The translations under genes were made by a program, and so were the position numbers. Shown here one piece after another: positions 1,021 through 61,300 of a DNA stretch of 64,000 nt (position 1 is the first letter of the stretch; each line of letters starts with the position of its first letter). The stretch comes from Gadus chalcogrammus. Its lineage: Eukaryota > Chordata > Actinopteri > Gadiformes > Gadidae. Below the pieces are notes generated by a model. It was not told the origin of the DNA and did no database searches. It worked only from the letters and a program-made list of their open reading frames with translations. Location: the NCBI RefSeq assembly GCF_026213295.1, contig NC_079418.1:4339887-4403886 (forward strand), read 5' to 3'.

Positions 1021-1025
1021 CTAAT

Positions 1026-1850: not shown

Positions 1851-2239
1851 TGGTGTCTTCTGCATCAACTAATGGGGGATCCATATAAAATCGGTAAATC
1901 CATATAAAGCTCTTGACCACAGACCACCTCGGGGGTGTCAGACATCCTGTTAGCAGTTGCCTGTCCTGGTGGTAGATAGGCCTACACCATAATGCATAAT
2001 GCCTGCCATCGAAATAGGTTACATACCTACTACACACTTTAATATACATATATATGAGCGAATATATATCGTATATACATCCCATCTTTTCCCCCCTATA
2101 CTCATTTGGCATGTTACTATACGGATAACTATAGTGTTTCATATCATAGATAAAACACTCCTTTTAACGTTCACAGACTCAAACTCTCACTCCCCATACC
2201 CCTAGATTGGGTATGCCTAGATTTCTGCTCATGCGCTAC
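1851..2239. other. Spacer without recognised feature
   Basis: Short open frames on both strands show no recognisable domain. No repeat boundary found. Confidence 0.4.
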
Positions 2240-2933: not shown

Positions 2934-3271
2934 TGCTTGCATCCCCTCTGATGGGATGGATACTTTGTGACAAAAAAAAACAAAAAAAAACTTTAAGCAT
3001 TCAACATTTAACATACGATATATGACATTCTTTATTAACACATTAATATACAAATCATCATTACAAAAGAGACCGATGACACCAACATATAATGCATACA
3101 AATAATAAACCAATAAAAAACAAACAATGAACCAAAACATAATCTGTACAAAACTCGTACCACTTCTTTATCATTACGGGTGATAGCCTTATAGCTAATA
3201 TCCATAAATCAGTGTGGCGTTATCATGAAAGATCCTAAGTATGTTTTAAACCACACACGAACGTTCAACTA
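2934..3271. other. Spacer between ATPase and FAM111-like remnants
   Basis: A+T-rich, with short A runs near 2971-2990. No domain recognised. Confidence 0.4.
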
Positions 3272-4228: not shown

Positions 4229-4335
4229 CTTAATAAATACACGAACAACTGCAAACGTACACTATATACTGTCAACAAATACAATATTTTGTGAATGTGT
4301 TATTCTTATTTGAGTACAGGTAAATCAATGTCACA

Positions 4336-4373
<38 letters not shown>

Positions 4374-5371: not shown

Positions 5372-5379
5372 ATACACTA

Positions 5380-6438: not shown

Positions 6439-6752
6439 ATACACTACTACTGTATGTAACCGGCCAGGACTCAGTAAGAATGTGCGAAGGAGACAATGGG
6501 AATTTACATTTATTAATGTTCTAAAAAGGCTCTGAGCCTTTTTTGGCCTCTCAGGCGCTGAGGGAGCATGACCCATGCAAAATAAAACAAACTTCACATT
6601 AGAAAGAGATATATATTTGGTGGAATACAAAAAAAGTGCACAACAGAGCAGGAATCAGTAGTTTTTGGCAATATAACAATGACAATAACAGTGAACAATC
6701 ATTTTAACATGTGTGCAACAGCACTTGAATGAGTATGAGTATTTCTGACTCA
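6439..6752 (-). other. Probable 3' untranslated region of the minus-strand HECT gene
   Basis: Lies immediately downstream of the stop codon at 6753-6755. An AATAAA hexamer on the minus strand (TTTATT at 6509-6514) could be the poly(A) signal, giving a 3' UTR of about 250 bases that ends short of the hAT element. Confidence 0.4.
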
Positions 6753-16709: not shown

Positions 16710-19700
16710 GGATAATAATAATAATAATAATAATAATAAATTGTATTTATAATGCACTTTATATTCAAGAATCTCAAAGTGCTTCAGAGAAAAAAAAATA
16801 CCAAAAAAAACTATTAAAAAGGGGGAACCTCAAAGAAAGTTTAGCTAAATGCTCTTTTAAAGAGATGGGTTTTGAGGTTCCGTTTAAAAAGAGCTGTAGT
16901 CTGTGGAGCCCTCAGGTGGTCAGGGAGGGCGTTCCATAGTCTAGGGGCAGCAGCAGAAAAGGCCCGATCACCCATGGTGCACAGCTTTGTATGTCGGGTT
17001 TGGAGGGTGTGAGTGGATCCTGAACGGAGTGTACGTGAGTTTGTCGGGGGGGTGAGGAGTTCCTGAAGGTAGAGGGGGGCAAGTCCGTGAAGGCACTGGT
17101 GGGTGAGGAGGGAGACCTTGTACTCAATTCTGAGTGAGACAGGGAGCCAGTGCAGTGATTTCAGGATGGGGGTGATGTGGTCATGCTTGCGCACCCTCAT
17201 CAGGACCCTGGCAGCACTGTTTTGAATGTATTGGAGCCTCTGGATGCTCTTGCCAGGGATCCCAATGAGGAGTGCATTGCAGTAGTCCAACCTGGAGGAG
17301 ACAAAGGCATGGACGAGCTTCTCTGCATCAGCCAGGGTGAGTGATTGGCGGAGTTTGGCGATGTTCCTGAGGTGGTATAAAGCTGTCTTACAGAGGTGTT
17401 TGATGTGGGTGTCAAAATTAAGTTGTGGGTCCATTTTAACACCGAGGTTGGTGACGGATGGGGGGATGTTTTTGCCAGAGAAGGTGATATTGGTGATGGT
17501 GGGGGAGCGGAGCTGATGTGGCGTGCCAATAAGGATGGCTTCCGTTTTATGGCTGTTAAGTTGTAGGAAGTTGAGCTTCATCCACGCCTCTATCTCCTCC
17601 AGGCAGGTGGTCAGTGTGGATGTTGGCAGAGGGGCAGAAGAAGTGGGGGTTGTCCTGATGTAGAGCTGTGTATCATCAGCATAGCAGTGGTAAGACAAGC
17701 CATGCCTGCTAATGACACTACCCAGGGGGAGCATATACAGTGAGAACAGTGTGGGGCCCAACACCGAGCCCTGGGGGACACCGCAGGTGACGTTGTTGGT
17801 GTGTGATTTTGCTTTGCCCAGGGCAACGTGCTCAGTTCTGTCAGTGAGGTACGAGGTGAACCAGTTCTTCACATTTCCTGATAGTCCAATGGTGTATTGC
17901 AGGCGGTGAAGGAGAATATTGTGGTCAACCGTATCAAAAGCAGCTGTTAAGTCCAGGAGGATGAGGAGAGATGGGGAGCCGGTGTCTGCTGCCATCAGGA
18001 GGTCATTTGTGACCCTGACCAAGGCTGTTTCTGTACTGTGGCCATAGCGGAAACCAGACTGGAATTTTTCAAACAAGTGATGTTGTATGAGGTGATCCTG
18101 GAGTTGTGCTGCAACTGTTTTTTCCAGAACTTTTGACAGAAATGGGAGATTTGAGATGGGCCTGTAGTTGGAGAGGACTTCTGGATCAAGGGTAGGTTTT
18201 TTTAATGTTGGTCTGATGACAGCAGTTTTTAATGCAGATGGGATATGGCCGGCCAGGAGGGAGTGGTTAATGATATTGGTGATGAGTGGAGAGACAGCAG
18301 AGATGTTGGCCTTCAGCAGAGCTGTAGGGAAGGGGTCTAGTGCACAGGTGGATGGCTTCATTTTCCTGATGACGTCCTCCACCTCTTCCTTTGTGATGCT
18401 GGAGAAGGAGCAGAGGGTCTGGACAGAGTCAATCGGTGGGTCAGCAGTTTGAAGGGGCAGGGCAGTAGTGATGGAGAGGTGTGAGCGGATGTTATTCACT
18501 TTTTGTTTAAAAAAGTTGATGTGCATGTTGCACCTCTCCGTGGTGGCATCAGATTGGGATGGTAAAGGGGGTTTGAGAAGGTGATGAACAGTTGAAAAGA
18601 GCTGTTTGGAGTTACCAGGGCTATTGTTGATTATTGCGGAATAGAACCTGGACCGTGCATTATTCAGGGCTTCAGCATATGCCCTCCCGTGTTCCCTGTA
18701 TGCCTGTTTGTGAACGGTCAGACCAGAGGCCTTGAGTCGCCGCTCAAGGACACGCCCAGCAGCCTTCATTGTACGTAGTTCACTGGTGTACCAGGGTGCG
18801 GAGCGCGAGAAGGAGACTGACCTCGATGTTAAGGGGGCGTGGAGATCCAGGAGACTGCTCAGGGACTGGTTGTATAAGTCCACTGAGTCAGCAAGAGAGA
18901 GGGAGTCAGTTGAGCCAGAGGAGAGATGTTGAAGGTCCAGGGCCAGGGCATCCATGTTGATATTTTTCAGATTCCTGAAGTGGATCTGCCGCTTTGGTTT
19001 GGTGTGGGAGGAAGGAAAAGGGAGCTCCATTGACACAACTCTGTGATCCGAGACGCCAAGATCATAGACCTGTAGGTTGCTGATGGGGGCGGAGTTTGAG
19101 ATGACCAGGTCAATTGTGTGTCCTCTGGAGTGTGTGGGGGCATCAACATGTTGTTGTAGGTTGAGGGAGTCTAGCAGCTGAAGAAAATCAGCAGCGGGCT
19201 GGCATGAGGGGGTGTCAACATGAATATTTAAATCACCCAGAATGATGGTATTGGCAGAGGTAGTACAGAGTGTTGTGAGGAGATCAGACATTTCCGGGAT
19301 GAAAGCAGAGTTGGGTTTAGGGGGCCTGTATATGAGTAGAACAGTCATGGGATGGGGGGGCTTGCATGTGAATGCAAGACATTCAAAGGAGGAAGTTGTA
19401 GGCAGCACCATGGGGGACAACTCCAGGTCCTGTTTGTGGATGACAGCTAGGCCACCACCGCGTCCAGTTCTGCGGGCTGCCTCCAAGTAACTGTAGCCTG
19501 GGGGACAGGCTTCGTTTAGGGCAGAGTAAACCTCTGGCTGGTGCCAGGTTTCTGTTAGACACATGAAGTCAAGTCCTTTTTCCCTGATATGCTCTTCAAT
19601 CAAGCTGGATTTATTATTCAAGGATTGAGTGTTGAAAAGTTCAAATTTAACCAGTGACTGTGGAGTTATTCTCTGTACAGGTCGCAGAGCCTTAAAATCC

Positions 19701-20431
19701 ACTCCGCGCAGGTTGGAATCCACTCCATGAAATCTATCCAGCCGGGAGTGCGGGGATCTCGCGATGTTACGTCTTTTGCCCTCAGCCGTCTCAGCGGACC
19801 TAATGGATGTGATGAAGCCGGCAGGCTGACCATAAATAAAGTTTCTCCCTGAGCCTCTGTGGATATATCGAGGTCTACGCAATAGTCCTAGCTGCTTAAT
19901 GGTGGAAATACAGGGTGGGATGGAGCGATTGTTGTACTTCAGCAGCTGTGGGGCGAAGTACGAGAACATCGAACCTGATGTTGAGTGATGTTTGCCTGTT
20001 AGCAGCTAGGTACGGACCCGACGCATCTGGGGAAGAGCTGGGAGGCAGTGCAGAAAATCCACGAGACAGTAGAGACAGCTTAGCAGGTTGACCAGGGCAT
20101 ATTCCTCACCAGGATCGCCGAAAAAAAACAAAAACGCCAGCAGTGACCAGGAAAATGTCAAATCAGCTACTAGTTTTTAGCCGTTGTTTTTAGCCGTTAC
20201 TAGGGAAACCAAAATAACAAGTGAGCTACACGGCTCTTCACAATAACACAATAACACTGGAACAACTAAAGACAGTCCATAAGCTTGCTTTTCGTCGCTG
20301 ATGTAGCTTGGGAACCAAGTAGAGATAATATGTCAACAAAAAAATCACTTTTTAAGTAAAATTGCTTGGAAAAGCGGCGAACAGACAGCGCCAGCGTCCT
20401 CTCCGTTTGTTGCCTAGATACCGATTTGCAG
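16710..20431 (-). mobile_element. Near full-length L2-like LINE
   Basis: The boundaries come from comparison with the uninterrupted second copy of the tandem unit: sequence between 16710 and 20431 is missing there. The 3' end (left) finishes in an ATT/TAA microsatellite at 16710-16740, as L2-type LINEs often do. The 5' UTR is about 460 bp (19970-20431), followed by one long ORF. No clear target duplication was found; at most a few bases. Confidence 0.85.
16841..19969 (-). CDS. LINE ORF: AP-type endonuclease plus reverse transcriptase
   Basis: An uninterrupted 1042-residue ORF. Residues ~105-325 form an AP-like endonuclease: FNTQS at 112, the catalytic glutamate in TETW at 139, GDLN at 245 and SDHR at 307. 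Residues ~580-860 form the reverse transcriptase: NYRPIS at 601, DLTAAFD at 673, GVPQGSVLGP at 730 and YADD at 763. Then follows a C-terminal region with a WLPV...RI.YK pattern, as in L2/CR1-related LINEs. The enzyme nicks DNA and reverse-transcribes its own RNA at the nick. All key residues visible to me are intact, so this copy may be, or recently was, active. The ATG at 19969 is chosen as first in the open frame; upstream residues have no family support. Confidence 0.92.
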   Translation of the reverse strand: MFSYFAPQLLKYNNRSIPPCISTIKQLGLLRRPRYIHRGSGRNFIYGQPAGFITSIRSAETAEGKRRNIARSPHSRLDRFHGVDSNLRGVDFKALRPVQRITPQSLVKFELFNTQSLNNKSSLIEEHIREKGLDFMCLTETWHQPEVYSALNEACPPGYSYLEAARRTGRGGGLAVIHKQDLELSPMVLPTTSSFECLAFTCKPPHPMTVLLIYRPPKPNSAFIPEMSDLLTTLCTTSANTIILGDLNIHVDTPSCQPAADFLQLLDSLNLQQHVDAPTHSRGHTIDLVISNSAPISNLQVYDLGVSDHRVVSMELPFPSSHTKPKRQIHFRNLKNINMDALALDLQHLSSGSTDSLSLADSVDLYNQSLSSLLDLHAPLTSRSVSFSRSAPWYTSELRTMKAAGRVLERRLKASGLTVHKQAYREHGRAYAEALNNARSRFYSAIINNSPGNSKQLFSTVHHLLKPPLPSQSDATTERCNMHINFFKQKVNNIRSHLSITTALPLQTADPPIDSVQTLCSFSSITKEEVEDVIRKMKPSTCALDPFPTALLKANISAVSPLITNIINHSLLAGHIPSALKTAVIRPTLKKPTLDPEVLSNYRPISNLPFLSKVLEKTVAAQLQDHLIQHHLFEKFQSGFRYGHSTETALVRVTNDLLMAADTGSPSLLILLDLTAAFDTVDHNILLHRLQYTIGLSGNVKNWFTSYLTDRTEHVALGKAKSHTNNVTCGVPQGSVLGPTLFSLYMLPLGSVISRHGLSYHCYADDTQLYIRTTPTSSAPLPTSTLTTCLEEIEAWMKLNFLQLNSHKTEAILIGTPHQLRSPTITNITFSGKNIPPSVTNLGVKMDPQLNFDTHIKHLCKTALYHLRNIAKLRQSLTLADAEKLVHAFVSSRLDYCNALLIGIPGKSIQRLQYIQNSAARVLMRVRKHDHITPILKSLHWLPVSLRIEYKVSLLTHQCLHGLAPLYLQELLTPPTNSRTLRSGSTHTLQTRHTKLCTMGDRAFSAAAPRLWNALPDHLRAPQTTALFKRNLKTHLFKRAFS

Positions 20432-25551: not shown

Positions 25552-26484
25552 TCACGAGCGGGCGGGACATACGGAAATAAGATGACCCGAAATTCCGCAA
25601 TAAAAACAGGCTCCCGATCGCATACGACGCTCCCTTTCCTCGGGCGTAAGGTGTGTGCGTCCTATCTGCATCGGCTCGGGGGAGGGGGTCCGCACATGGC
25701 GAGGAGGAACGGCAACCGGGAGGGGAGACCGCGTGGCGACCGGTGACTCGAAGGGGGGCGTGGCGAATGAGTGTGCGCTTCTCTCTCTGCGACGTTCGCG
25801 CAAACGGTTGTCCATGTGTATCGCGAGGGAAATCAGATGATCTAAGCCCGTGGGTTCTTCCCAGGAGACTAAACGGTCCTTCAGATCACTGCTGAGCGCA
25901 TTTTGGAAGACCCCCTGGAGCGCTTCCTCGTCCCAGCCGCTCTCTGCGGCGAGGGTCCGGAACTCGACCGCGAAGGAGGCGACGCTGCGGGATCCCTGGC
26001 GGAGCTGCAGGAGACATTGGGAGGCCTCCCTGCCCCGGACCGGGTGATCGAAGACCTTCCGCATCTCGTCCGTGAAGGAACTGTAGTCGTAGCAAACCAC
26101 GGACCCGCGTTCCCACACCGCCGCTGCCCACGCGAGAGCCTCGCCACTCAGCAAACCGATCAAATACGCTATTCTTGACCTCTCGGTGGGGTAGGTCTGG
26201 GGCTGCATTTCAAAAACTAGGGAACACTGAACTAAAAACGACCGACAGGATCCTAGGTCCCCTCCGTAACGTTGGGGGGCTGGGATGGTCGGCTCCCGGG
26301 GAGAAGCCGACGGACCCGGAACTGGGGCTGCAGGTTCAGGAGCGACGGAGGGTCGAGAACTGACGGCGTGGGTCAACTCACGGAGGGCGGTGGAGATCTC
26401 CTGCAGAGCCTGATCGTGTTGGCCCAGGAGAGTCCAGTGGTGAGCGATCATTCCCCTGAAAGCCTCTGCGTCTGCTGGGTCCAT
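25552..26484 (-). CDS. Ty3/gypsy Gag with zinc knuckle
   Basis: An intact 310-residue ORF starting 17 bases inside the 5' LTR. An N-terminal coiled region and proline-rich linker (residues ~45-70) precede a retrotransposon Gag/capsid fold (YGGDLGSCRSFLVQCSLVFE to MDNRLRER, ~75-240). A CCHC zinc knuckle (CFYCGISGHLISVC) follows at the end. Gag builds the particle that packages the RNA. The ATG is the first in frame after the LTR. It may still be translated although pol is defective. Confidence 0.88.
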   Translation of the reverse strand: MDPADAEAFRGMIAHHWTLLGQHDQALQEISTALRELTHAVSSRPSVAPEPAAPVPGPSASPREPTIPAPQRYGGDLGSCRSFLVQCSLVFEMQPQTYPTERSRIAYLIGLLSGEALAWAAAVWERGSVVCYDYSSFTDEMRKVFDHPVRGREASQCLLQLRQGSRSVASFAVEFRTLAAESGWDEEALQGVFQNALSSDLKDRLVSWEEPTGLDHLISLAIHMDNRLRERRRERSAHSFATPPFESPVATRSPLPVAVPPRHVRTPSPEPMQIGRTHLTPEERERRMRSGACFYCGISGHLISVCPARS

Positions 26485-26500
26485 CTTGGCCAGTTCGTAC

Positions 26501-26607
26501 TGTTACGGTACGGGTAACTGGGACCCAAGTGCAGGACGCAGGGAGGCGGAGACAGGGTAAAGGCAAAGGAATTTATTCGAAGAGCGTTCGGGAAGTCAGG
26601 CGGGCGG
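26501..26607 (-). repeat. 5' LTR of the Ty3/gypsy element, truncated
   Basis: 107 bp nearly identical to 24121-24224, with a few extra bases (GGCAAAGGAAT here, GGCAGGAAT there). It then changes to unrelated repeat sequence. Confidence 0.88.
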
Positions 26608-30958: not shown

Positions 30959-31536
30959 ATCTAACCTGAAGATTCTATGAAATATCAGCTTCCAATACAG
31001 GTCTGAGGATTCGTTCTCAGTCCCAAAGCTCTGCTTCGCCTCCAAGTGGTTACCAAACCAGAGGTCGAGGAAAGGGTGCCTGTGGGGATAAACTAGTGGT
31101 TCTTCAGTACGATATCCAAAGGAAAAAAGAATTCGAGCAGGTGAGATCACAATACTGTTAAAGCTTCAAAATAAAATCCGTTACAGAAAACGGTATATAA
31201 ATGTTTCGGTAAACGTAAACTTATATCTGAACTTAGGCCTCGTTCAAAGAAACTCTGTTATAGGAACATGCGGTAGCTCCGTTTCGCTTCCGTCAATATA
31301 TATATAGCTATATAGGTAACAGAAAGGGCAGCTAGGGTCTGTCAGTGACGGTAAAGGGAAACCCGTTGAAGCGCGGTTGGTGTTATATATATATATAAAT
31401 AATAATAATAGGTATTCATTAATAAATATATGTATATGTGTGTAGTAACAAGGAGGTTTCGGCGATATTAGATAATTTGTTAAATAATAACTAGTGTAAA
31501 AGGATAAATAATAACTAGTGTAAAAGGATCTAAAAT
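30959..31536 (+). other. Retroviral 5' leader
   Basis: Non-coding, A+T-rich, between the primer site and gag. A direct duplication of about 22 bp (AATAATAACTAGTGTAAAAGG, twice, 31480-31530) lies just before the gag ATG. Confidence 0.6.
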
Positions 31537-32703
31537 ATGGGGAACAAATCTGGAAAAACTGAGATAACGGGACCTGCGAAGGTGATGTTGGAGAAGCATG
31601 GTGAATCGGCTCTGGAGGGTTTAAAATATTGGTGCAAACTGGGTTTTCCTGAAATGGGGAGTTTTAGCTTAAAACGATTACAGGAGTTAGAGAAACGATT
31701 GTTGGAGTCAGAAATGAAAAAGAAAAGTTCCAAACTATGTTGGTGTGCATTTTATTTGTGGGAAAGAGAGGGCCAGGATAGAAAAAAAAATCAGCCAGGG
31801 ACAGAGAGCGTAGAGAGTGTAGGGATTTTTAATCTCAATGTCACCCGAGATATAGACCCGGACCTGGACTGCACCGGCGGACCGCGTGCGAATCCCCCAT
31901 CTCCTCCCCCGTATGACAACGCCCATGAAGCCGCCTCATCGGACAATCTCTACCCTGACCCCGAAGAAGAGGAGAAAGCCCCCGCTCGCAGCGCGAGAGA
32001 AGATAGGCCTGCAACTCGTAGCCAGAGGAAAGCTCCACAGCAGGCGACGGCCACACCGACCAAGCGGGAGCCCGTCGCCAGCCACTTGAGGAACCGGGGA
32101 ATGGCGTTCTCCCCAACTCCTCAACATGGGGACGTGATGGATGGACAATTCCCCATGATCGAAGTACTGAACCCCCAGGATGGCAGACCAGCATACGTTT
32201 TCCGTGCATGGAGACCCAGTGACATTAAGGACATAGCGGAATGGCTCCCAGACCCATCTGCAGTGGGAGGGGCTGCCTTCGCCACAGCCCTTCAAGAGTT
32301 GGTCCAACAACACAAGGCCTCCATCAGCAAAGTTCGCCAACTCTGTACGTACAGCCAAGGCGACATGCCCGGGAGGGACGAAGCCAAGAAGCTCCAGCTC
32401 ACCCGACTGGAGGCCCTGGAGAATCCTAAGCCCACCCGTCGCACTTGCAACAGAAACCAAAGAGGCGACCGGCCGAAAGAAAAGAGAAAGGAGAACGCCG
32501 GACGATGGAACTGTCATTGTTGTGGAGCCAAGGATCATTGGGTCAAAGACTGTCCGAAAGAAAAGAGAAAGGAGAACGCCGGACGATGGAACTGTCATAA
32601 TTGTGGAGCCGAGGATCATTGGATCAAAGACTGTCCCAAGAAAAAAGAATCGACAAAGACAATGGAAGGGCCGGCCGGCAGTTCGCACCTTCCTGTGAAG
32701 TGA
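31537..32703 (+). CDS. Retroviral Gag with most of capsid missing
   Basis: A 388-residue ORF. It starts MGNKSGK, a probable N-myristoylation signal, followed by a matrix-like domain (~1-100), a linker with a PPPY late-domain motif (residue ~128), and the beginning of a capsid domain. It then passes directly into a basic region with two CCHC zinc knuckles (CHCCGAKDHWVKDC and CHNCGAEDHWIKDC). A full Gag of this type is longer; the capsid core appears to be deleted in frame. The two knuckles sit in an exact 81-nt tandem duplication. Gag would form the particle shell, but this version is unlikely to assemble alone. Confidence 0.85.
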   Translation: MGNKSGKTEITGPAKVMLEKHGESALEGLKYWCKLGFPEMGSFSLKRLQELEKRLLESEMKKKSSKLCWCAFYLWEREGQDRKKNQPGTESVESVGIFNLNVTRDIDPDLDCTGGPRANPPSPPPYDNAHEAASSDNLYPDPEEEEKAPARSAREDRPATRSQRKAPQQATATPTKREPVASHLRNRGMAFSPTPQHGDVMDGQFPMIEVLNPQDGRPAYVFRAWRPSDIKDIAEWLPDPSAVGGAAFATALQELVQQHKASISKVRQLCTYSQGDMPGRDEAKKLQLTRLEALENPKPTRRTCNRNQRGDRPKEKRKENAGRWNCHCCGAKDHWVKDCPKEKRKENAGRWNCHNCGAEDHWIKDCPKKKESTKTMEGPAGSSHLPVK

Positions 32704-48190: not shown

Positions 48191-48387
48191 TTAACATTGA
48201 AAACGCACTTAAAAACATGTGGATGGAAACCCAGACAGCTCAGCTAGCGCGACACCTAAGACGAGAAAGTGACTAACGCTAACTAAGCTGGCTACAGGCT
48301 GATAAAATAATACAGCACATCACAAATATAACATAAACTAACGTTAGATCGTTGAACACAAATAGTCCTGTTAACTAGTAGCTACAT
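48191..48387. other. Presumed 5' region of the inverted duplicate
   Basis: Non-coding. Parts of it (TACAGGCTGA..AAAATAAT, AGATCGTT) recur just right of the LINE at 58409-58490. Confidence 0.4.
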
Positions 48388-48465
48388 GCACAACGTCATG
48401 CAGGCTAATAGGCAGCCTGGGCACGTAACGTACCTATAACTAGGTAATTGAGCTAAGCTAGCAGC
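48388..48465. repeat. 78-bp direct repeat flanking the LINE, left copy
   Basis: Differs from 58331-58408 at a single base by my reading. Either a long target-site duplication or a pre-existing repeat. Confidence 0.9.
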
Positions 48466-48479
48466 CACGTCTCCCCCCA

Positions 48480-49205
48480 ATTAGGGCTTTTATGGATGAC
48501 ATGACAACCATGACGTCAACCGCTCCGTGCAACCGCAGGTTGCTGGATAAGCTAAATAGCAATCTGCAATGGGCTAGAATGAAGGTGAAGCCAAGTAAGT
48601 CTAGGAGTCTCTCAATTGTTAAAGGAAAGGTAGTTGATAAGAAGTTTGCTATAAATGAAGAGGTGATGCCTACAGTTCTGGAGAAGCCAGTGAAGAGTCT
48701 GGGAAGGTGGTATGATGCAAGCCTTAGTGATAAGGCACAGGTTGAAGAATTGAGACAGGAAACTAGACAAGGTATTGCAAAGATAGACAAGTCAGGGCTG
48801 CCAGGTAAGCTTAAGTTGTGGTGTCTGCAGTTTGGTTTATTGCCTCGGCTAATGTGGCCATTGACAGTGTATGAAGTTCCTCTGTCAAAGGTAGAAAGGA
48901 TGGAAAAAATGATCAACTCTTTTGTCAGAAAGTGGCTCGGAGTCCCACGCTGCCTAAGCAGCGTGGCCTTGTATGGGAAGGGCATTGTAGAGTTGCCCAT
49001 ATCTAATCTGACAGAAGAATTGAAATGTGCTAAGGTTAGACTGGAGATGACTCTTACTCAGTCCAAGGACCCAGTGGTGAGGAGGGTTGCACCCACAGTT
49101 AACGCAGGGAGGAAATGGAAACCAAAACAAGCGGTCCAGCAAGCTCAATCGGCACTTAGACATAGAGATATTATGGGCCATGTTCAGCACGGGCGGGGGG
49201 GCTTA
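48480..49205 (+). pseudogene. LINE reverse transcriptase, part 1
   Basis: Opens just before the catalytic box (AFMDDMTTM, with methionine between F and DD) and continues with PSKSRSLSIVKG, an LGRWYDASL block and a thumb/linker region (LPRLMWPLTVYEVPLSKVE, ELPISNLTEE). Everything upstream of the catalytic box is missing. The frame is open to the insertion point. Confidence 0.78.
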
Positions 49206-49790
49206 TAGGCTAGTGACAATGCCCCCCAAATTCTGAGATACCCCTACCGGAGGTAGAACTAAACCCAACAATGTTTTTCCTCATCTCTAAGGTCTCCCAT
49301 ACATGAAAGTGATTCTTGGCTAAAATATTTTTACTGCTAAGATTGTGAAATTGACAGATATTGTTATATACCTCCAAACAAAAAAAGGCCTCAAATATAG
49401 CCTGTCCGTATGGGAGTTAAGACATATAAACTAATGCAGAATGATAACACAAGCTCTGAGAGCTTTGAGACTTGGCAAGTTTGTAGCCAGGGAGTCAATG
49501 CACCTACTGGAAAAAGCTGGATGTGAATATCTTGATGTATGAAGTAGATGGAGACCTATAAACACATACCTAAAATAAGCGGACAGTGAAAAAAATGATT
49601 TCTATGCAGAATGTTATCATTTACTTTGTAGTTGCTTTGCCAGGCATTATCATAGGAACACATAAGATGGCTTGTTGGAAAGGTGGGATTGTGCTGAATC
49701 CAGCAATACCAAATATGTATATATGGTATGAACAATAAAGATGGTATGTCACTCAATGTATGAGGTGTCCAAAATGAAAGAAAATGAAAC
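49206..49790. repeat. Left long terminal inverted repeat
   Basis: 585 bp; the inverse of 56351-56945 with scattered single differences and small indels. Confidence 0.92.
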
Positions 49791-50296
49791 TCTGATATAA
49801 AAGTCCAAAGCTGCAAATTGCAAATTAAGTAAGAGGTTAGTGCTGCTCTATACTACACATTTAATAATGACACAAATAATATAGCACATTGTATATATAC
49901 TGTATATATCTATACAGTTCATATGGAAACAAAGACTGAAATTGAAAGATGACACGTTTACAGTGACTACTTGTACTGTCCTCGAAACTCATAAAATGGC
50001 TTGTTGGAAGGATGTCATTGCGCTAAATCCAGCCAACCAAATATAAAAATATAATATGAATATATTATATATATAATATAAAATAAACCATGCAACCATT
50101 CATAATTAGATGTTTTAGCTGTCCCAAATGAAAGAACTCATTGCATTGCAATGTGCTGTAGTGTCCTATCTGAGGCGAGTCTAGTTATGGCTTAGGGCCT
50201 GGCAATAGCACACACAGGAGACCAGGAGTCAGGATTGCAGTTTGGCATTGATGAGCCTTTTAATAAAACTATTACTTAAACTATAACATTTCATTG
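49791..50296. other. Non-coding interior between left repeat and gene end
   Basis: A+T-rich with TATA runs. A short text near 49990-50030 (ATGGCTTGTTGGAAGG) echoes the inverted repeat (ATGGCTTGTTGGAAAGG), suggesting an older internal duplication. Confidence 0.5.
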
Positions 50297-53200
50297 TCAC
50301 TCATCCACATCATCATCAGTGACAAAATGAGTCACATTTGGACAGTCTGGAAAAGAGCAAGAGCAAAACTCAGTGCAAGTCAATCCCACTGCAAGACACT
50401 GGCATTTGGTGGTATCATTGCATTTTCCATCTTTACAGTACATATGGGTGATGTCTCTGACTTCTTTAGGTGCTGGTTCCTTCTGGAACATCACAGGTTC
50501 AATGGACCCATCTTCTCTGAGCTTCCATCCTCTACCAACTGGGTTCCAGAGATGAGGCCTGGCCAAGTGGCTGTGACGCCACACTGCTGTTTGATACAAG
50601 GCTCTCAACACATGTTGCTGGAAGGCATCTTCTGTTGGAGGTAGATTTGCTGCAGATGCATCTGTGGTAGATGCAAGTGTGTACCTCAGCTCATCCAGAT
50701 TGGTGCAAAGATGTCCATCCACCCTTTTCTTTTGGCCATACAGGAGCAGGGCATATTTTCTTGCCACAGGCAAAGCTTCTTGCAGGCTTCCAGAAAGTCC
50801 AAACTTAGTCATTTCCTTCAGCTCACTCAGATGGGACTTCAGTCTTGTGAAGGCAGTGGTCTTCCCAATTCTGTATAAGCTGCTTGTTGTATCGCAACCT
50901 GTGAGGGCATGGCATGCCGGCAAACAATCACAAAGAACCGGTCCAAGCTTCTGAGTGATTGAACAGACTGGGATGAATCTTTCCTTCAGGCCATGTCCAG
51001 AGTGCATGAAAACTGCAGAGGATCCAAACATTCCTTTGCTTGTATAGTAGATCAGCAAAACCAGCACATCTGTGTCATCACATTTGACTATTAGACGAGA
51101 ATGTGACCTTGCAAGGTGTATTGCATGTAACACCAGTCTCGTATCTGCCTCCTCCTGGTCACTGTAAAGCTCTGTCAAATTGTCGATGCCTGACTTCCTA
51201 ACCCTCTTTACTTCCTCACCATTATCAAATCCACCAGCCAAGATAACTGTGTTCTCTGAAGAGAGTCTCATCGGTCCAGTACTTGTGATGTAGTTACTCA
51301 CAAAGCTACATAGAGCAGCCTTGTTTCCACTTATCTTAAGGTATTTCCTATAGTTTGGAACACTTGCTTGTCCTGTGATGATATGTGTTCGTGTGGTTTG
51401 AATGGTGCCTCTTCTTTGCCTCTCTAGATCTTTGACTGAGTGTTGATGGTCATATCTGTCAAACACTACAACAACACAGCTGATGCCTTCCTTTCCCATT
51501 AACATTGTGATCTTTTTCCAGACACACTCGGCCAGGTCGTTGAATGTTTGAAAGGCTGAATCATGGAGAGTCTGTATAAGAGCCATGCCATCGATGATGT
51601 ATGCTGATGGTACGTCAACATTTGGCAGCTGCTGTGACTCTTCAACAACAGCCTCCAGTTTCTTGGCAAGGTCAGCTTTAGTTGTCTTCCTCATGCTTCC
51701 ATCATCATAAAACAAAGAGGGCGGGACAGCTGCGAGTTCATGAGACATCACAGTTTCCATGGACACCTCTCGCTGCTTGGAAACAGCCAGTAACCTTCGA
51801 AAGAGCACATCTGAGTCCATGTGAACCTGTCTAGACTGGACTCCAACTGATGTTTTCATATCCTTGAAGGTTGCACACTGGTTTCTTTTCTCAGACTCCC
51901 AGAAGCTCTTTGTTCTTTTTGATTTTGCCAGACGTTCTTCAATAAAGACGGCATTCTGCTTTGCACCATCTTGGAGGAAGCTTGAGAGCCCTTTTGCAAC
52001 CTTCTCAGATGCAACCTGACCACTTGCAATATTGATCAATTCCTCAGGAATGCTTTCAAGATCAAAAGGATTCTGTCTCTGCTCCACAGCTTCCATTATC
52101 TTCTGTATGTCTCTCTCGTCTCTTTCCGTTCTGGATGCTCCATGCTCCTGGTGTACTTTTTGGCCCTTTGCATCAGTGTCACAAAGCTCTTTCATGGCAT
52201 CCACATATGCTGTGGTCACATGTCTTGTCATCAGCCATCTTGTGAGAGCTCCCTTTCGCAATGTAAAACCAACAACTCCACCCTGACTCTTGCCTTCACG
52301 ATTAATGGTTTGCTCCAGTGCCTGATCAGATGCCACACAGTTGAAGCTTCGATGCTCAGACCGGCGAACAACAAACCCACCTTGCTGCATGAATGTGTAT
52401 GCTTCTGGTTGTTCATGTTCAAGAGCTTTCATTTCTGCAACATAGACAGGCATGTACTTGGAATAATTGGTCCTTCCAGCAGCTCTGAACCAAGGCATAA
52501 CTTCACACATGCAATTCAGGTGAAGTTGAAAGTCAGCTTCGCGTTCTGAGCGAAGGATCCGTAGCAACAGATCAGCACCATTTAGGAACATTATCCAGTA
52601 TCCAAATGTTGCTGATTGCTTAACTCCCTCATTTGTGAACTTCTGGATTTTCTTCTGAATCTCATGGAGTTCAGTCTCCACCTCACCGATGAACTGTTGA
52701 GCAGTGGCCTTGTCATTACCATGAAATGCATGCTGTACATCTCGTAGGAGTTGCTCTTGTTCTTCAGTCATTGCACATTGGCCTTGTTTTTCAAGCCATG
52801 ATTGCATAGCTTTCCAGAAGAGCCTGAACAGAGCCTCAGAGGCTAGCTTTATGCTCCTTACTCCTCTTGCCAGCTGTTTCCCTTGAAGCATCTGTCGAGC
52901 TGTTCCCTCTGCATACACATCTGACTCAGTAAGTATGTCAAAGAGTCCACCATCGCCATACAGCTTTCCGATGCTTGCCAGGTAAGCCATCGTGATATGC
53001 ATACCTCCCAGTCTCATTGTGATCTTTCCTTGTAAAGGAAGTGGTTTGCTCCACATTATCTGTTGTGCTTTACTATAAATAGCAAGGTCTGCAGTCACAA
53101 GAATATGGTCCTGTCCCAGGTCTGCAGCAAGCTGTACAAGTCTTATCAAAGATGTATAGATGGTGGACAATTCTGAGGGTGATTCTCTTATGAAGGGCAT

Positions 53201-55264
53201 GTAGAGTACACTGGCTACTGAACAAGCAGTGTCTGACGTGAAGGCATTGAATGCAGACCATGAAGGGACATGCTGCTGATTCTCAATTACATTTCGGGAC
53301 AGCTTCCATACCAGATCTCTGTCTTCAGCTGCTTTAGAGACTGTTGTGTTTGTGTTTAGTAACTCAGGAAGTTCAGGTGGTTCTGGTCGCTTTGTTGATT
53401 TGATGTATCTGTCAATTGAAATGAGAGGATAATCTTGTGATCATATGCATTGAATATTATATCACTTTAAAACTTCACAGCATACATTCACTTCACTATT
53501 AAACATTTCATCCACCCATTATATTTTTAGCAGTGCATGTGAATAAGTGGATACTATAACATTAAAACATAAAAATTGATTTAAAAAAAATGTCAATGTC
53601 AAAAATAAGTACCTGTGAAGTGTATCTCCATTCAGGTCGAATGTGTTTGAGGTGGTGAGGGACCTCTCTGGAACCCGTGCTAGGCATGTATCTGCTGTGG
53701 AGACTTGGCCTCTTCGGAACACAACAGAAGCCATAGCATGAGTTGTATGCTTCCCATCCAGGGTATCTTCATTTTGGTCAAAGTTGTCGATGGCTGCATC
53801 AACAATTCCATGTTCAGCGACTCCAGTGAGGCCTGTTGGGATGTAGACACCTCTTTCTGTCCTTGATATCTGGTCTGCTGCCACAGATGTGAGGAAATGC
53901 CTAACCTCTGTATAGGAAACACAGTGCCCCATTGCACTGAGCTCATCGATGAGTGTCTTACTACCAAACTCATGATGAATCAAAATGGCGAGTCCCAGTG
54001 TGATTGGCGTATGGATGTGACGGCTCTGCCCAATGAGATCATGACAGATTGCTATCACACACAGATTGTCCTTCGAAGCTGGGTCATCATCACATGTTTG
54101 GTAACCTCTGTGGGCACGTGAATCAACACACCAGTTCACAAAATCATACAGGGTGTTTGGTACATACTTGCTGCATTGACAACGTGATAGACGATCACTG
54201 CTGACATATGATTTACTGTCATGCTCTACCTGCTCCATGCTTTTCCTCAATATGTCTGCAGCCCTGTGTAATAATTGAGTTTCAGAAAGACTCTGACTTG
54301 TCTCTGGAAGTGTTGGCTCATAGTCTTCTTTATGTTCTTCAGTCTTTTCTCTGAGTTGAGCAGCTTCCCTCAGTGCACAACCTACAGTCATAGTCTCCGA
54401 ACACACCAGATCTGACTTTCCTGGACGTGGAACAAATACCAGCCTGTCTTTGTAATGCTGCATCAACTTTCCCTTTAGTTTCCAGGATCTGTGTTTCTTG
54501 TGTTGGACCGTGGACACATCTTCCTCAGAAATGCTCATTAGTATGTCATCGTAGCTATCAGTCAAATAGTTGAGAGTTCGAACTTTCATATCCTTGGACA
54601 ACACTGTTTTATCAATTTCTTCAGTTAGCTTGATAAAGGCTTTGTCATAGACATTTGTCTGCTTCTTTTCAGATTCTTTTCTTCGTCTGGCAGCTGCTAT
54701 ATTTCGTTCAGAGATGTAGTGTGCAAGACACTTTTTATGGTATTTAGCATCATATGCAAAGAGATCTGGGCATGAAAGAATCCGAAGATGTACATCTTCA
54801 TCAAGCCTTTCAGAAGCTGCATGAAGTACCTTTTCTCTGGTACTCGTGCCTGTACCAGTTGAAATGGCTGTCAGAGGTTCTGGTCTAGTGCTGGCCTTCT
54901 CACAAATGAAACAATCTCTCCGTATGTTAAATGATGCTGTATCAGACCTACTCAGCCTTCTTGGCACAGATGTGCTCTCACTCTCAACATCTGCAACTTG
55001 CTGCTCACTGTTTTTTTTCTTGCAGTAGTTTGCTCTACATGATACATGATATGACACTTTAATTTTGGCTGAAAGTATGTCATCTCTATATGGAGCAAAG
55101 TTTTTATGGACATCATCATCTCTCTGCTGAGCAAGAGTAAGTATGCGTTGGAGGCCTTCTACTGTGGGGTTTTGGACATAGGGATCTTTTTTCTTGCCCT
55201 TTTCCAAATGATTCCCACAAATGATACAAAGATTTGGATCCAATGTCTGTAAGACATCCTCCAT
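50297..55264 (-). CDS. Putative transposase/nuclease, FEN/XPG-like, two exons
   Basis: Exon 1 is 53613-55264 and exon 2 is 50297-53408, joined by a 204-bp intron with good sites (CACAG|gtactt ... gacag|atac). The phases agree and give about 1587 residues with no stop. The N terminus has two similar zinc modules: C13, C16, H73, C76 and C118, C121, H176, C179. In exon 2 a set of acidic motifs follows the FEN/XPG order: IIDGMAL (~1154), FDRYDHQ (~1198), QEEADTRLVLHA (~1300), CDDTDVLVLL (~1325). Next is HALTGCDTTSSL...IGKTTAF (~1380-1397), like the GSD plus helix-hairpin-helix of FEN1. A cysteine-rich CXC-like tail (~1538-1573) ends the protein. Known FEN/XPG enzymes cut flaps and bubbles using two metal ions; here the role is probably mobility of the element (inference). 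Exon 2 could also be read as a separate 967-residue ORF. Confidence 0.8.
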
Positions 55265-55351
55265 AATTCAACTGACTAGGAAAAAGGGAAAATAATATAC
55301 ATTTTAGAATTAGAATTTTTATCATAAAATGTTAAATTACACATTCACTCA

Positions 55352-55735
55352 AGGGCTGAACGATTTCAGGAAAAGATCTAATTGCGATTTTTCTGGTAGA
55401 TATTGCACATCTATTCTATAAACAAGGGGTGTCAAACTCAAGGGGGGGGGGGGGGGGGAGTTGACGCGCCAGGGTTACCGCGTCAAGACGCACGTCAACG
55501 CGTTAACGCTGAAATGCGATATGCCGGCGGGCCAATTGCTTTACATTAATTGGGGACATTACATTATAAGGTATATGGTGAGGTATATGGTGATTTCTCA
55601 AGTGCCGGTATAAATAGTTGACAACATATCTCGGGTCAGTCAGGAACACGGAAGAAACCGCGGCTTTGGCGATCACGAGATCGCGTTGTCTGAAATCGCA
55701 ATTTCGACCAGAAAACGATAAATCGTTCAGCCCTA
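55352..55735. mobile_element. hAT-like MITE near the start of the nuclease gene
   Basis: Inverted ends AGGGCTGAACGATTT and AAATCGTTCAGCCCT. The interior includes a G run at 55442-55459 beside GGGGTGTCAAACTCAAGG, which looks like a further nested fragment. No target duplication was found. It lies about 90 bp upstream of the ATG. Confidence 0.65.
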
Positions 55736-56350
55736 AAATATAATAACATAATAATATAATAACATAATATAAACATAAACATAATAAAAACATAACATAA
55801 CATAATAATATAATTCACTCTACAGTTTTGTTGCTAGCAGAAAGAATGGTGCTAATTCAGAGGGCTAAGCACTAATTTACTTGTATGATTCTAGGTCAGC
55901 CTTTTGACATGAAATGTAATGATTGTAATGCAATGATTTACCTGTCAGTTTAGGAAAATATCCATGAAGACAATGATGTAGCTAGCTTCATCATTGGTCA
56001 CATCAAAGGTCAAATCAAAGGTCACATCAAGGGGGTAGTGGGTTCTACTGCCCACTTCTGGTCTGGAGAGACCAAAGCTGCCAACATTATTTCCCATTAT
56101 TCAGTAATTACTTGACTACAAAGAAATTCAAGTGGATGTAAATATTTTGATATAGGTGTTCTTTTCAATTATAACCTGATTCAATTGGATCTTTCTTTCT
56201 GTATGAACTATATAATACAATGTGCCATATTAAAAATATAATCATTAAATGTATTATAATATACAGCAGCACTTACCTCATGTAAGTTAATTTGCAGTAT
56301 TATTGAATTTATCAACATTCCTCTGACCACTGATATTGGGCATTGGACTG
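55736..56350. other. Non-coding interior between gene start and right repeat
   Basis: Has (ATAATA/ACATAAT)-rich text at 55740-55815 and a tandem TCAAAGGTCA near 56005-56030. The gene's promoter should lie here, but no motif can be supported. Confidence 0.45.
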
Positions 56351-56945
56351 GTTTCATTTTCTTTCATTTTGGACACCTCATACATTGAGTGACATACCAT
56401 TTTCATTGTTCATACCATATATAGATGTTTGGTATTGCTGGATTCAGCACAATCCCACCTTTCCAACAAGCCATATTATGTGTTCCTATGATAATGCCTG
56501 GCAAAGCAACTACAAAGTAAATGATAACATTCTGCATAGAAATCATTTTTTTCACTGTCCGCTTATTTTAGGTATGTGTTTATAGGTCTCCATCTACTTC
56601 ATGCATCAAGATATTCACATCCAGGTTTTTCCAGTAGGTGAAGTGACTCCCTGGCTACAAACTTGCCAAGTCTCAAAGCTCTCAGAGCTTGTGTTATCAT
56701 TCTGCATTAGTTTATCTGTCTTAACTCCCATACGGACAGGCTATATTTTAGGCCTTTTTTTGTTTGGAGGTATATAACAATATCTGTCAATTTCACAATC
56801 TTAGCAGTAAAAATATTTTAGCCAAGAATCACTTTCATGTATGGGAGACCTTAGAGATGAGGAAAAACATTGTTGGGTTTAGTTCTACCTCCGGTAGGGG
56901 TATCTCAAAAACTAAAGCCCTTTCTGACTGTTTGTCACTAGCCTA
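56351..56945. repeat. Right long terminal inverted repeat
   Basis: 595 bp; the inverse of 49206-49790. Confidence 0.92.
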
Positions 56946-57900
56946 TTAGGGAGGGACGTAGGTAAACCCTCGTGGGGTAAGGCTTCTGCAGGGGAAAGGA
57001 GAAAAATGGTAGTGGAGGAAATACATAGGCAGGAGGAGATTGTAAGATGTACTAAGGCAGTATCACAGGCAAAAAGGGCAGTGGGTGAATTGGGAGGGAG
57101 TGGAGAAGAAGAAGATAAAGTGGAGAGATCTATGGAGCATGGAGGCTAGCAGGATCAGATTTATGATAGGTGCCACTTATGATGTGCTCCCATCTCCCCA
57201 GAACTTAAATCAGTGGTATGGTGAGGATGAGACATGCACACTATGTTCCTGTGTATGCAGCCTCCGCCATATCCTATCAGGGTGCAAGGTAAGTCTCTCC
57301 CAGGGGCGGTATACGTGGCGTCACAACCAGGTATTGAAATGTTTGGCAGAGGCTGTTGATGATAAACGGGGAGAAGCTAATTCATCAGCCGCTAGTAAAG
57401 AGGGTAGGCAAATTAACTTTGTGCATCAGGGGGAAAAGGCTAGACCATTTAGAGGCAGGCACAGAGTCGGGCAGCTAAGTAATGGAGGAGCCTGGGAATT
57501 GAAGGCGGATCTTATTCAGCAGGTTCTTGTGCCTCCACACATTGTTAGCACTCGGCTAAGACCAGATATGCTATTGTGGTCAGACTTAGAGAAGATTGTT
57601 TATTTTATTGAACTTACAGTTCCTTGGGAAGACAGAGTTGAAGTAGCTAATGAGCTCAAGAAAGCGAAGTATGCTGAGATGGCTGAAGAGGCAGCACAGA
57701 GAGGCTGGAGTTCGCGACTAAGGCCTATTGAAATCGGTGCACGGGGGTTTGTGGCTAGATCTGCTATTAGCTTGCTGACTGAACTGGGTATTTGTGGACG
57801 AAGTCTGAGGCAGGCGGTTAGTAACATGTCCGTGGCAGCAGAACGAGCAAGTGAATGGCTGTGGGTAAGGAGAAAACATACTTCCTGGGGTGCAAGCTGA
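56946..57900 (+). pseudogene. LINE C-terminal part with CCHC finger and restriction-like endonuclease
   Basis: Continues the frame cut at 49205, though a stop or frame change precedes 57085. From there 271 residues are open: a CTLC...LRHILSGC CCHC finger (~47-66), a basic linker, then RPDMLLW (~155) followed by YFIELTVPWED (~170), the PD...E arrangement of restriction-like endonucleases in R2/R4/HERO-type LINEs. These enzymes nick the target before reverse transcription. Ends with a serine-rich tail and TGA at 57898-57900. Confidence 0.82.
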
Positions 57901-58330
57901 GGTAAGCCAGCTGTGCTAACGTGAGCTAATATGCCAACGTGTTTGTGTGGTCAGGGTTAGGGGTAGGGCTAGGGGTACGATGCAGGAAAGAGTGTTTAGA
58001 TGCATTAAATGTGGCAATGTGGTGGCAGCATTGAGGGGGGTGAATCCAGGACGCTGGTTTCATTGTTAAGCCTTCAGGAGGTGTCGTGGGCCTAACTTAA
58101 ACGAAACATCTGTGAAAGAGGGTGCCCACTTGATAACCCCAATGATATTCTGCTTACTGCTTACTGCTGTTAATTGGGCTAGTTGTCTCGTGTTTTTTTT
58201 TCACCTTTGGTTGGTAGCTCAGTAGCCAGCATGCTTATAAGGTTGGTTTGGATAGGGGCTTCTGAATATGTGTTTTCCTTGGATTTTGGCACAAGGGATT
58301 ATAACATCTGATCCTGTGTATTAATGAATT
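57901..58330 (+). other. 3' UTR of the endonuclease LINE
   Basis: Non-coding; includes GGTTAGGGGTAGGGCTAGGG near 57953. Ends at the right 78-bp repeat without a clear poly(A) tail. Confidence 0.55.
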
Positions 58331-58408
58331 GCACAACGTCATGCAGGCTAATAGGCAGCCTGGGCACGTAACGTACCTATAAGTAGGTAATTGAGCTAAG
58401 CTAGCAGC
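58331..58408. repeat. 78-bp direct repeat flanking the LINE, right copy
   Basis: Matches 48388-48465 except at one base. Confidence 0.9.
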
Positions 58409-58930
58409 TACAGGCTGACAAAATAATGTGTATTTTTTTTAACCCAATAAAACATCCACAGATCGTTAAACATAAGCAATCTACATGCACCAGTTCAAAC
58501 ATAACATTCTTGCTATTACTATGATGGAAGACATACCTGCGCATTGATTTTCTTTCCTCTCAGCCCCCGACTCCCGCTCTGTCTCATCATGGACTTCAAA
58601 ACTCCCTCTCTCGTTACTGTGTATGTTGCCAAGCTGTCACTCCGATCGAGACTGGCCAATAGAGACGTGTCTTACATCTTTCGGCGTAGGTCCCGCCCAC
58701 GAGATTCAGCTCAACAGCAAGCAAAGCTTTTGGATTTGCAAGCAAAACTTTTTGATTCGCAAACAAAACTTTTGGATTCGCAAACAAACCTTTTGGATTT
58801 GCAAACAAAACCTTTGGATTCCCATTAATTTTTTATCACATTTATTTATCTTGCAATAAAACATTTTTTGATGGCAGTGTCGATAGTTTTGCTCTCAAAT
58901 CTATTTTTTGATTGCAGTGTGGAAAGTTTT
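58409..58930. repeat. Spacer with a ~22-bp minisatellite
   Basis: At 58727-58818 a unit like TTGGATTCGCAAACAAAAC repeats about four to five times. A second pair of about 50-bp units (GCAGTGT.GA.AGTTTTGCTC) lies at 58875-58945. No gene assigned, although the minisatellite is open in one frame. Confidence 0.7.
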
Positions 58931-58943
58931 GCTCTCAAACCTA

Positions 58944-60066
58944 TTATTTTTGATTGCATAATAAAGACACAAATCTACCTCCATACAGCTGCTTCAGTTT
59001 GGTGTTGACAGTAAACCCAAAGAACCTGTCCTTCATCCTTCTTTCCAGCTTTTGTTTTAGTTCAGTCATTACCTTAAACACCGATGTAATGCTGAAGGAT
59101 TTTGCCTCAAGTGCTTCGATCGTGTCGGAGAACACCTTAAGAACATGGCTGAGAAACAGAAAATATGACTCTGACACCTAATTTCTTTCCTCTCCAAAAC
59201 ATCTCTGCACAATTCTGGCACATTCCCCCACACCCTCACTCTGGAAGTAGCTGGTCAGGGCCTGCCAATATTTCAGGATTCTGTCAATGGATGGCAGCAG
59301 GGACAACCACCTGGTGACAACACGCCGCAGCAGGTTGCATTTCTCCACCTCCACAAACTCACAGAATTCCTTCAATTGTGCTGTTCTGCTTGCTGATATG
59401 CTGAAATGGCTGTAAACCTTCAGCACAGCATTTTTCACATCAACATCAAGGCTGCTTGCTGCATATCTGGTTGCATTATGCAGAATATGGGCCAAAAAGT
59501 TTTCTTTTTGGATCAGTTTCAGCTTCTGATACACAGAATGTTTGCCATAAGTGACACTGGCATTGTCTGCTGCATATGCAGACATCTCAAGTTTTGCCAG
59601 CAGCTGGTTTGCTATGGCTTCAGACGTTTCGTTGCTGTCACTATAAAAATCCAACAGGACATGTTGGATGCCTTCAAAGTGAAAATACCTCACCACAATG
59701 GGAAAACACTTGGTTGTTCCTTTATTTGAGGCATCGGATGCCACGGAAAAGGGTTGGTTGTTTTCTTTTATGAAGTCGGTATGTAACTGTACCGAATAGG
59801 GAGTGGTGAAGTTCTCTCGGTCTACTTTCACGCCACAGTCTACACTTCTGTAGGACTGGTGATGCTTTACAGCATGGTACACCTTGCACAGCTCGGCAGC
59901 GGTTATTTTGTCATCCAGGGGCGACGAAACTTCACGAAAAGATGTCCTCATTGAAGAGGTACCTGCCGCACGTTTATTACTTTTATGTTTATCGGTACCC
60001 GCATGCCGTTCAATTGCAGCTTTCCCCCTTACTGCTTACGTCGACATCGCATCGACAAAGTGTGCA
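58944..60066 (-). pseudogene. hAT transposase fragment
   Basis: The frame 59178-59951 reads as the central part of a hAT transposase: VASDASNKGTTKCFPIVV, a YAADNASVTYG block and VVTRWLSLLPSIDRIL, as in KIAA1586-like hAT proteins. A stop at 59178 separates a further block (58944-59177) with LKQKLERRMKDRFFG. Upstream, to about 60066, a broken zinc-finger-like text (ERHAGTDKHKSNK) is visible. The dimerisation region is absent. Not functional as read. Confidence 0.75.
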
Positions 60067-60938: not shown

Positions 60939-61244
60939 TTGGCTAGTGTTAGAGGCTACACACTTAGTTTTCATTTTCACAGTGGACTGATGTAGTTTCA
61001 TTCAAGGAGTTGATGCTACTTTACAGTTGTAAGATTGCACTCTTTTGTTAAACTTTTGAAAAGCTTCCTCTGTAAAACAGGAACATTTATTTTTTTATAT
61101 TTTATTTATTTATTTTTACAGAAGTTGTAGCAGATTCATTTTGAAAAGCTACAGAAGTTGTTGTACCCAATGTTTTGTAAGTTTGAGCCATGTTTTAAGG
61201 TCTCACATAAAACAAGATGAGAACTTAAATATTCCAATTTATAA

Positions 61245-61300
61245 TTAGGGCATTTAGCAGACACTTTTATCCAAAGCGACTTACATAGTTTAATACACAC
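61245..61300. repeat. Short interspersed fish repeat
   Basis: CATTTAGCAGACACTTTTAT followed by CCAAAGCGACTTACAT is a text found widely in fish genomes. Class not determined. Confidence 0.5.

Follow-up and report, generated by a model that had tools for sequence, protein, structure and literature searches.

A Gadus chalcogrammus transposon, most likely a new AcademX family, whose protein is predicted to join an RNase H-like core to a FEN/XPG-like nuclease

We analyzed a 64-kb stretch of the Gadus chalcogrammus genome (64,000 nucleotides, hereafter the window), in which positions 49206-56945 hold a transposon copy with a single minus-strand gene. The features of this element and of its insertion site are collected in Table 1. 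The initial annotation of the window had proposed a transposon with precise ends at these positions, and this was confirmed to the base: TAGGCTAGTGACAA begins at 49206, the reverse complement of TAGGCTAGTGACAA ends at 56945, and the TTA direct repeat noticed at the outer edges is present at 49203-49205 and at 56946-56948. The inverted repeats, described at that time as ~590 bp long, are real, but they are actually composed of 14-bp ends, a short spacer that differs between the left and the right side, and arms of 560 bp.

Table 1. Features of the transposon copy and of its insertion site, in window coordinates.
Feature	Position	Strand	Basis or content
Transposon copy, 7740 bp	49206..56945		both ends and flanking TTA read; five more insertions with the same ends
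Target-site duplication, left, TTA	49203..49205		directly outside the left end; single TTA in empty sites
Target-site duplication, right, TTA	56946..56948		directly outside the right end; single TTA in empty sites
14-bp terminal inverted repeat, left	49206..49219	+	same in all six insertions
14-bp terminal inverted repeat, right	56932..56945	-	same in all six insertions
Long inverted repeat arm, left, 560 nt	49231..49790	+	98% complementary to the right arm
Long inverted repeat arm, right, 560 nt	56351..56910	-	98% complementary to the left arm
Exon 1 (predicted)	53613..55264	-	two Cys/His zinc-finger-like pairs and first putative catalytic aspartates D493, D496
GT-AG intron, 204 nt (predicted)	53409..53612	-	between D493/D496 and D658; placed by comparison with one-frame relatives
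Exon 2 (predicted)	50297..53408	-	rest of the predicted DDE core, FEN/XPG-like nuclease, CXC domain, stop
Two N-terminal CxxC...HxxxC zinc-finger-like pairs, residues 13-179	54728..55228	-	pattern read in the sequence
Predicted RNase H-like (DDE) core, residues about 486-935	52256..53809, intron included	-	near-invariant D..D..H..E; DUF6589 in distant members
FEN/XPG-like nuclease domain, residues about 1154-1420	50801..51601	-	seven conserved acidic positions; weak profile matches
C-terminal CXC (tesmin/TSO1-like) domain, residues 1542-1573	50342..50437	-	TCR and LIN54 matches; motif in the window protein
Interrupted LINE copy, left part, TTA included	48462..49205	+	open frame; other copies in the genome
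Interrupted LINE copy, right part	56949..57900	+	open frame; other copies in the genome; joined frame; empty sites

The element lies within a copy of a long interspersed nuclear element (LINE), whose reading frame had been reported to be interrupted and to resume on the other side. In agreement, when the flanks were joined with one TTA, the LINE reading frame was unbroken across the junction; a frame change further downstream is a property of the LINE copy itself. The search for empty sites, suggested in the initial annotation as a check, was performed with the joined 237-bp site, and the uninterrupted site was found at seven further LINE loci of this genome. The match spans the whole query at six of these, four at 98.7%, one at 93.7% and one at 86.6%; at the seventh, with 98.1%, it begins 15 bp short of the junction. 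No gap falls at the TTA junction in any of the seven; in L019, the copy matching at 86.6%, a gap of 2 bases lies a few bases left of it. Direct repeats of 82 nt, 98% identical and 9.9 kb apart (48387-48468 and 58330-58411), flank the LINE copy that holds the transposon.

When the 630-Mb genome was searched with the left end as the query, five further insertions were found, giving six in total with the copy in the window. All are at different places, the same 14-bp ends were observed at both sides of the six, and each is flanked by a duplication, which is of 3 bp in five insertions (TTA, GAA, AGG, AAG and TTC) and of 4 bp in the remaining one (TATA). A search for other copies with matching inverted repeats and TTA duplications had been suggested as a check; copies with matching ends are thus present, but TTA is at one of six differing sites only, and TTA as a target preference is ruled out. 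Five of the six insertions are long, at 7461-7862 bp. With gapped columns left aside, identity to the window copy was 99.4-99.9% for L010, L011 and L012 and 97.2% for L009, whose matching BLAST pieces are at 99.3-99.7%; the lower overall figure of L009 was probably caused by a replaced stretch. Both exons are free of stops in three of the five long copies (window, L010 and L011), exon 1 is incomplete in L009, which also has a stop, and the frame of L012 changes near residue 1045. The other insertion, L013, is a rearranged derivative (G000:C14:26357300-26366500, 657-7384) with the left end of the family and a fragment of exon 2; at its right end, similarity to the family is confined to the last 14 bp, and the TTC duplication still flanks it. 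Collectively, the family is young and apparently intact.

The single intact two-exon gene of the initial annotation held up: the two predicted exons (55264-53613 and 53408-50297) give a product of 1587 amino acids with no stop. The intron was located by reference to relatives, such as P0012, in which a single frame encodes the same protein. The Pfam scan of the two exons gave no DDE (aspartate-aspartate-glutamate), no XPG and no helicase match, and named no family for the N-terminal zinc-finger-like pairs. Homologues were retrieved with three queries: exon 2 gave 81 at E ≤ 0.001, alignment A1 gave 37, and the core of the distant relative P0077 gave 191 at E ≤ 0.01. The hosts named among the matches listed, which for the P0077 core are those of the best 120 of 191 matches, were fish (including Dissostichus and Epinephelus), hagfish, insects, sea spider, sea cucumber, priapulid, limpet and cnidarians. 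Two relatives, P0082 and P0150, are filed under the names of bacterial metagenome-assembled genomes (Sedimenticola and Candidatus Thiodiazotropha), and are probably animal-host DNA in symbiont bins. Another relative, P0034 from Dissostichus eleginoides, carries the name 'Beta-glucanase', which is probably a misannotation.

Conservation was counted in alignment A2, which holds 69 relatives, the denominators being the rows with a letter in the column in question. In the region of the predicted core, five positions were near-invariant: D493 (39/41), D496 (40/41), D658 (58/59), H688 (58/58) and E916 (65/65). The 11 relatives fetched from the same genome showed the same letters wherever covered, except L025, with Y at H688; the uncovered positions were D493 to H688 in L027, L030 and L031, D493 and D496 in L026, and H688 in L029. 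A propensity-based guess on A2, which is a weak method, placed strands just before the first and the second D and a helix at E, and with the same method on A3 the first strand and the helix were less clear. The D..D..H..E order is interrupted by the intron and by an insert of ~230 residues before E, and one reason why the pattern is hard to see by eye is that exon 1 holds the first aspartates and exon 2 the remaining residues. Moreover, the Pfam family DUF6589 was found above its cut-off in the distant relatives P0070 and P0077. A gapless count back from the match end placed the last E at profile position 358 in P0070, in P0077 and in L040, a DUF6589 locus of the Gadus genome described below, and the counts from the match start, with gaps ignored, disagreed among the three. 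The statement that the element has no recognisable DDE transposase is therefore probably wrong, as the near-invariant D493/D496-D658-H688-E916 fits a DDE core and the same region is DUF6589 in distant members. The initial annotation had offered two options, that the element uses the encoded nuclease for mobility or that it hides a diverged core; on the basis of the D-D-H-E conservation and of DUF6589 in distant members, the hidden core is the better option, and the nuclease alone is less favoured.

Further along the protein, seven acidic positions were near-invariant in A2: D1157 (54/54), D1201 (53/54), E1304 (51/52), D1306 (51/52), D1329 (51/51), D1331 (50/52) and D1390 (48/48). The 11 relatives of the same genome showed the same letters where covered, D1201 being uncovered in L028 and L033, except for Y at D1390 in L027, L030 and L031. 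As in FEN1, EXO1 and XPG, these residues come with the motifs of the family in order, i.e., IDG, VFD..(I/S)K..ER.R, EAD, DTD and GCD. Profile A3 was compared with 177,635 distinct PDB sequences, and the four matches at E ≤ 10 (0.25-0.52) all carry the name Exonuclease 1 and align collinearly in two stretches, one at VFD and one at GCDY. Profile A1 gave seven PDB matches, which were four of Exonuclease 1 (0.54-0.7), LIN54 with its CXC domain (E 0.041), an enkurin-domain protein (0.45) and a hydrogenase (1.2). When the nuclease profile was run against 369 open reading frames from six host XPG_I loci, three matched at E ≤ 1, all at the GCD motif, with E values of 7e-4 to 6e-3 for that small set. 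Against the assignment count the weakness of the PDB E values for the XPG family (0.25-0.7) and the hhalign comparison of the nuclease profile with a host asteroid-like protein, which at 12.1 did not exceed the scores of its reverse (15.6) or of three shuffles (12.7-17.6). In contrast to the known FEN1/EXO1/XPG proteins, the domain is here embedded in a transposon protein, and Pfam XPG_N and XPG_I had no match in the exons nor in the relatives scanned. Each profile match is weak singly, but taken together with the motif order they indicate that the predicted FEN/XPG-like nuclease, already proposed in the initial annotation, is a sound assignment. At the protein end, Pfam TCR was found at E ≤ 5 in 12 of the 23 relatives of A1 (best 7.7e-6), and the CXC pattern was present in 18 of 30 rows, the window protein included. 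The parts of the Academ literature considered here do not name a CXC domain as a component of these elements.

The Academ group had been put forward as a candidate home of the element. Its AcademX branch has a nuclease of the XPG type. Academ is reported from zebrafish, medaka and stickleback (PMC4746887), and it is listed in PMC9587614 among the superfamilies with a DDD/E transposase. According to PMC10045372, the target-site duplications are of 3 or 4 bp in AcademX and of 9 or 10 bp in AcademH, a split that is related there, citing Kojima 2020, to the content of nuclease versus helicase; the same paper speaks of the AcademX nuclease without the word XPG.

The genome of G. chalcogrammus itself was searched for DUF6589, and 20 places were found, 19 of them above the cut-off. 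Four are XPG-type relatives of the element (L023, L027, L030 and L031, all above the cut-off), and six of the 16 others were fetched, namely L040, L041, L042, L043, L044 and L045. A helicase frame like that of L040 was detected by tblastn on the opposite strand in five of these six loci (L040, L041, L043, L044 and L045). The Pfam names of the helicase frames were checked at L040, where DEAD and Helicase_C frames lie alongside a DUF6589 above the cut-off, and at L041, where Helicase_C was found. The XPG motif scan of the six loci found none, a crude scan that also missed the XPG-type L028. Both ends were located in two helicase-type copies, and one of them, L041, showed TAGTC ends and a 9-bp duplication. 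By their predicted frames, L040, L041, L043, L044 and L045 are helicase-bearing DUF6589 elements and AcademH-like, and this suggests that DUF6589 may be the Academ transposase core. In the literature searched, DUF6589 was not found by name, and its number, PF20231, was found only in an unrelated paper.

Several observations weigh against an RNase H-like, DUF6589-type core in the window protein and against its link to the helicase-type elements. DUF6589 matched the window protein with E = 0.022 and 13.9 bits, below the cut-off of 27; the nearer relatives P0012, P0043 and P0063 had no DUF6589 match at E ≤ 0.1, and among the 23 members of A1 it was found at E ≤ 5 in seven. In a tree of 30 rows, the window protein groups with P0012 and others in a clade of nine rows that is supported, and P0070 and P0077 fall in another supported clade; therefore, the DUF6589 link to the window protein is indirect. 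No RNase H-fold chain was among the PDB matches of profiles A1 and A3 at E ≤ 10, and exon 2 of the window alone had no PDB match at E ≤ 1. As for the helicase-type loci, no helicase frame was found in L042 by tblastn, and L040, with both ends located, showed no clean duplication. The core profile against the L040 open reading frame gave -1.2 bits with hmmsearch and 22.1 with hhalign, the best of 30 shuffles being 21.6. This direct comparison was not significant, and therefore the helicase-type link rests on the Pfam family.

Among the XPG-type relatives of the same genome, L026 on the one side and L027, L030 and L031 on the other are from two other families, and they start with TAGTCAGG and have 3-bp duplications, AAA at L026 and CTC, TTT and TCC at L027, L030 and L031. 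Inverted repeats of at least 260 bp were observed in six of the 11 relatives fetched, and L029 and L032, which have long inverted repeats, showed no clear duplication. L027, L030 and L031 (on C16, C4 and C18) are near-identical XPG-type elements of 4.7 kb with an open frame of 813-834 amino acids, whose match to the window protein does not include the part of the core from the first aspartate to the histidine; these are probably non-autonomous copies moved in trans.

With these data at hand, Academ is the likely home of the element: duplications of 3-4 bp and an encoded nuclease are found in it as they are in AcademX, and the assignment was made by published description. A core shared with helicase-bearing Academ elements was observed only via the DUF6589 of the relatives. 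The helicase-type, AcademH-like elements of the same genome also share DUF6589 with distant members of the protein family, and the helicase-type ends likewise begin with TAG; however, AcademH has 9-10 bp duplications and a helicase gene, whereas the element has 3-4 bp duplications and an XPG-like domain, with no helicase in the two exons. Compared by description, the element is most likely a family of AcademX, i.e., a new member of a known group. Thus, we regard it as highly probable that the transposon copy at window positions 49206-56945, with its 14-bp ends, its 560-bp inverted repeats and its TTA duplication, is a member of the AcademX branch, and we predict that its own protein of 1587 amino acids moves it.

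It is quite unlikely that the element comes instead from another or an undescribed superfamily, for example a Kolobok-, hAT- or P-like one, that gained an XPG nuclease independently, even if the placement in Academ was made here by description. Kolobok elements have a TTAA target-site duplication, and the duplications of hAT elements are of 8 bp. The six differing sites found here are duplicated over 3-4 bp (TTA, GAA, AGG, AAG, TATA and TTC), none being TTAA or of 8 bp, and so they do not fit Kolobok or hAT. The Kolobok lineages KolobokP, E and D do offer a parallel, as they likewise combine a DDD/E transposase with a second nuclease in one element, and the extra nucleases are of various types (PMC9587614); those nucleases have other folds, and the duplications of our element are without a fixed target. 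In addition, the DUF6589 link to helicase-bearing elements, one of them with a 9-bp duplication, fits the AcademX/AcademH split as given in PMC10045372.

A second alternative, that the FEN/XPG-like nuclease is itself the transposase, with a merely structural D-D-H-E and no RNase H chemistry, has a very low probability in our judgement. In its favor, the seven acidic positions are as conserved as the DDE-type positions, no RNase H sequence match was obtained in the PDB, and constraint on the XPG region is no weaker than on the DDE region. The latter comes from the ratio of nonsynonymous to synonymous substitution rates (dN/dS) between L024 and L029, which was 0.35 for the 301 codons compared in the DDE region and 0.20 for the 236 codons compared in the nuclease region; L025 and L032 against L029 agreed with these values, both being near-copies of L024. 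Judged from what is in effect one distant comparison, both domains seem to have been maintained over long times, the nuclease being under constraint equal to or stronger than that of the core. Speaking against such maintenance, the synonymous divergence between L024 and L029 is near saturation (0.97 and 1.31), and the near-copies gave high ratios: 1.03 over the nuclease (dS 0.10) and 2.43 over the DDE region (dS 0.004) for L024-L032, and 1.79 over the DDE region (dS 0.004) for L024-L025. Against this alternative, DUF6589, which covers much of the D-D-H-E core in distant XPG-type members, adjoins a helicase elsewhere in the genome, in elements where the crude scan detected no XPG motif and of which one has TAGTC ends and a 9-bp duplication; therefore, the core, and not the nuclease, looks like the shared part. 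Moreover, DDE strand transfer leaves fixed-length duplications at dispersed sites. Lastly, a composite of two dispersed-repeat copies that flank a host gene by chance, the possibility of unrelated repeats already raised in the initial annotation and conceivable in that inverted dispersed repeats can yield long arms, is ruled out by the six insertions that share both ends and have duplications, by the 97-99.9% identity of the long copies to the window copy, and by the empty sites.

Other mobile sequences were found elsewhere in the window. An open frame of 1054 amino acids at 16841-20005 (minus strand), with endonuclease and reverse transcriptase domains, is from a retrotransposon of the type that lacks long terminal repeats. 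Gag-like open frames with zinc-knuckle matches lie at 31534-32703 (plus strand), which we take to be Gag-like by resemblance, and at 25552-26502 (minus strand). The open frame at 59178-60035 (minus strand) presumably resembles a hAT transposase, and it had no Pfam match at E ≤ 0.01. A UnaL2 LINE 3' element (Rfam RF00436) was identified at 61244-61297 (minus strand), and the tRNA scan of the window found none.

Returning to the preferred reading of an AcademX element with a diverged RNase H-like core, the following course of transposition may be proposed. Binding of the transposon ends would fall to the Cys-rich fingers and the CXC domain, and the RNase H-like core (D493 or D496, D658 and E916, with H688) would cut these ends. 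The same core would join the ends to a target opened with a stagger of 3 bp, sometimes 4 bp, and gap filling would make the target-site duplication. The FEN/XPG-like domain (D1157, D1201, E1304, D1306, D1329, D1331 and D1390) would act on branched or flapped junction DNA, most likely to cut the non-transferred strand or to remove flaps when the element is excised and joined. A more general form of this proposal is tentative, and we consider it possible rather than probable: AcademX would use a two-nuclease reaction, in which the DUF6589/RNase H-like core joins the ends and cleavage of the branched intermediate by the fused FEN/XPG-like domain sets the 3-4 bp stagger, as opposed to 9-10 bp in the helicase-bearing sister lineage, with DUF6589 as the shared Academ transposase core and CXC as an end-binding module.

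The family described here is young, with three of five long copies open in both exons, and this opens to experiment the question of why a flap-type nuclease has been fused to the transposase of a cut-and-paste transposon. A link between DUF6589 and Academ would assign a function to this uncharacterized Pfam family, and it would help annotators to stop naming such genes as host proteins, as occurred with the 'Beta-glucanase' P0034.

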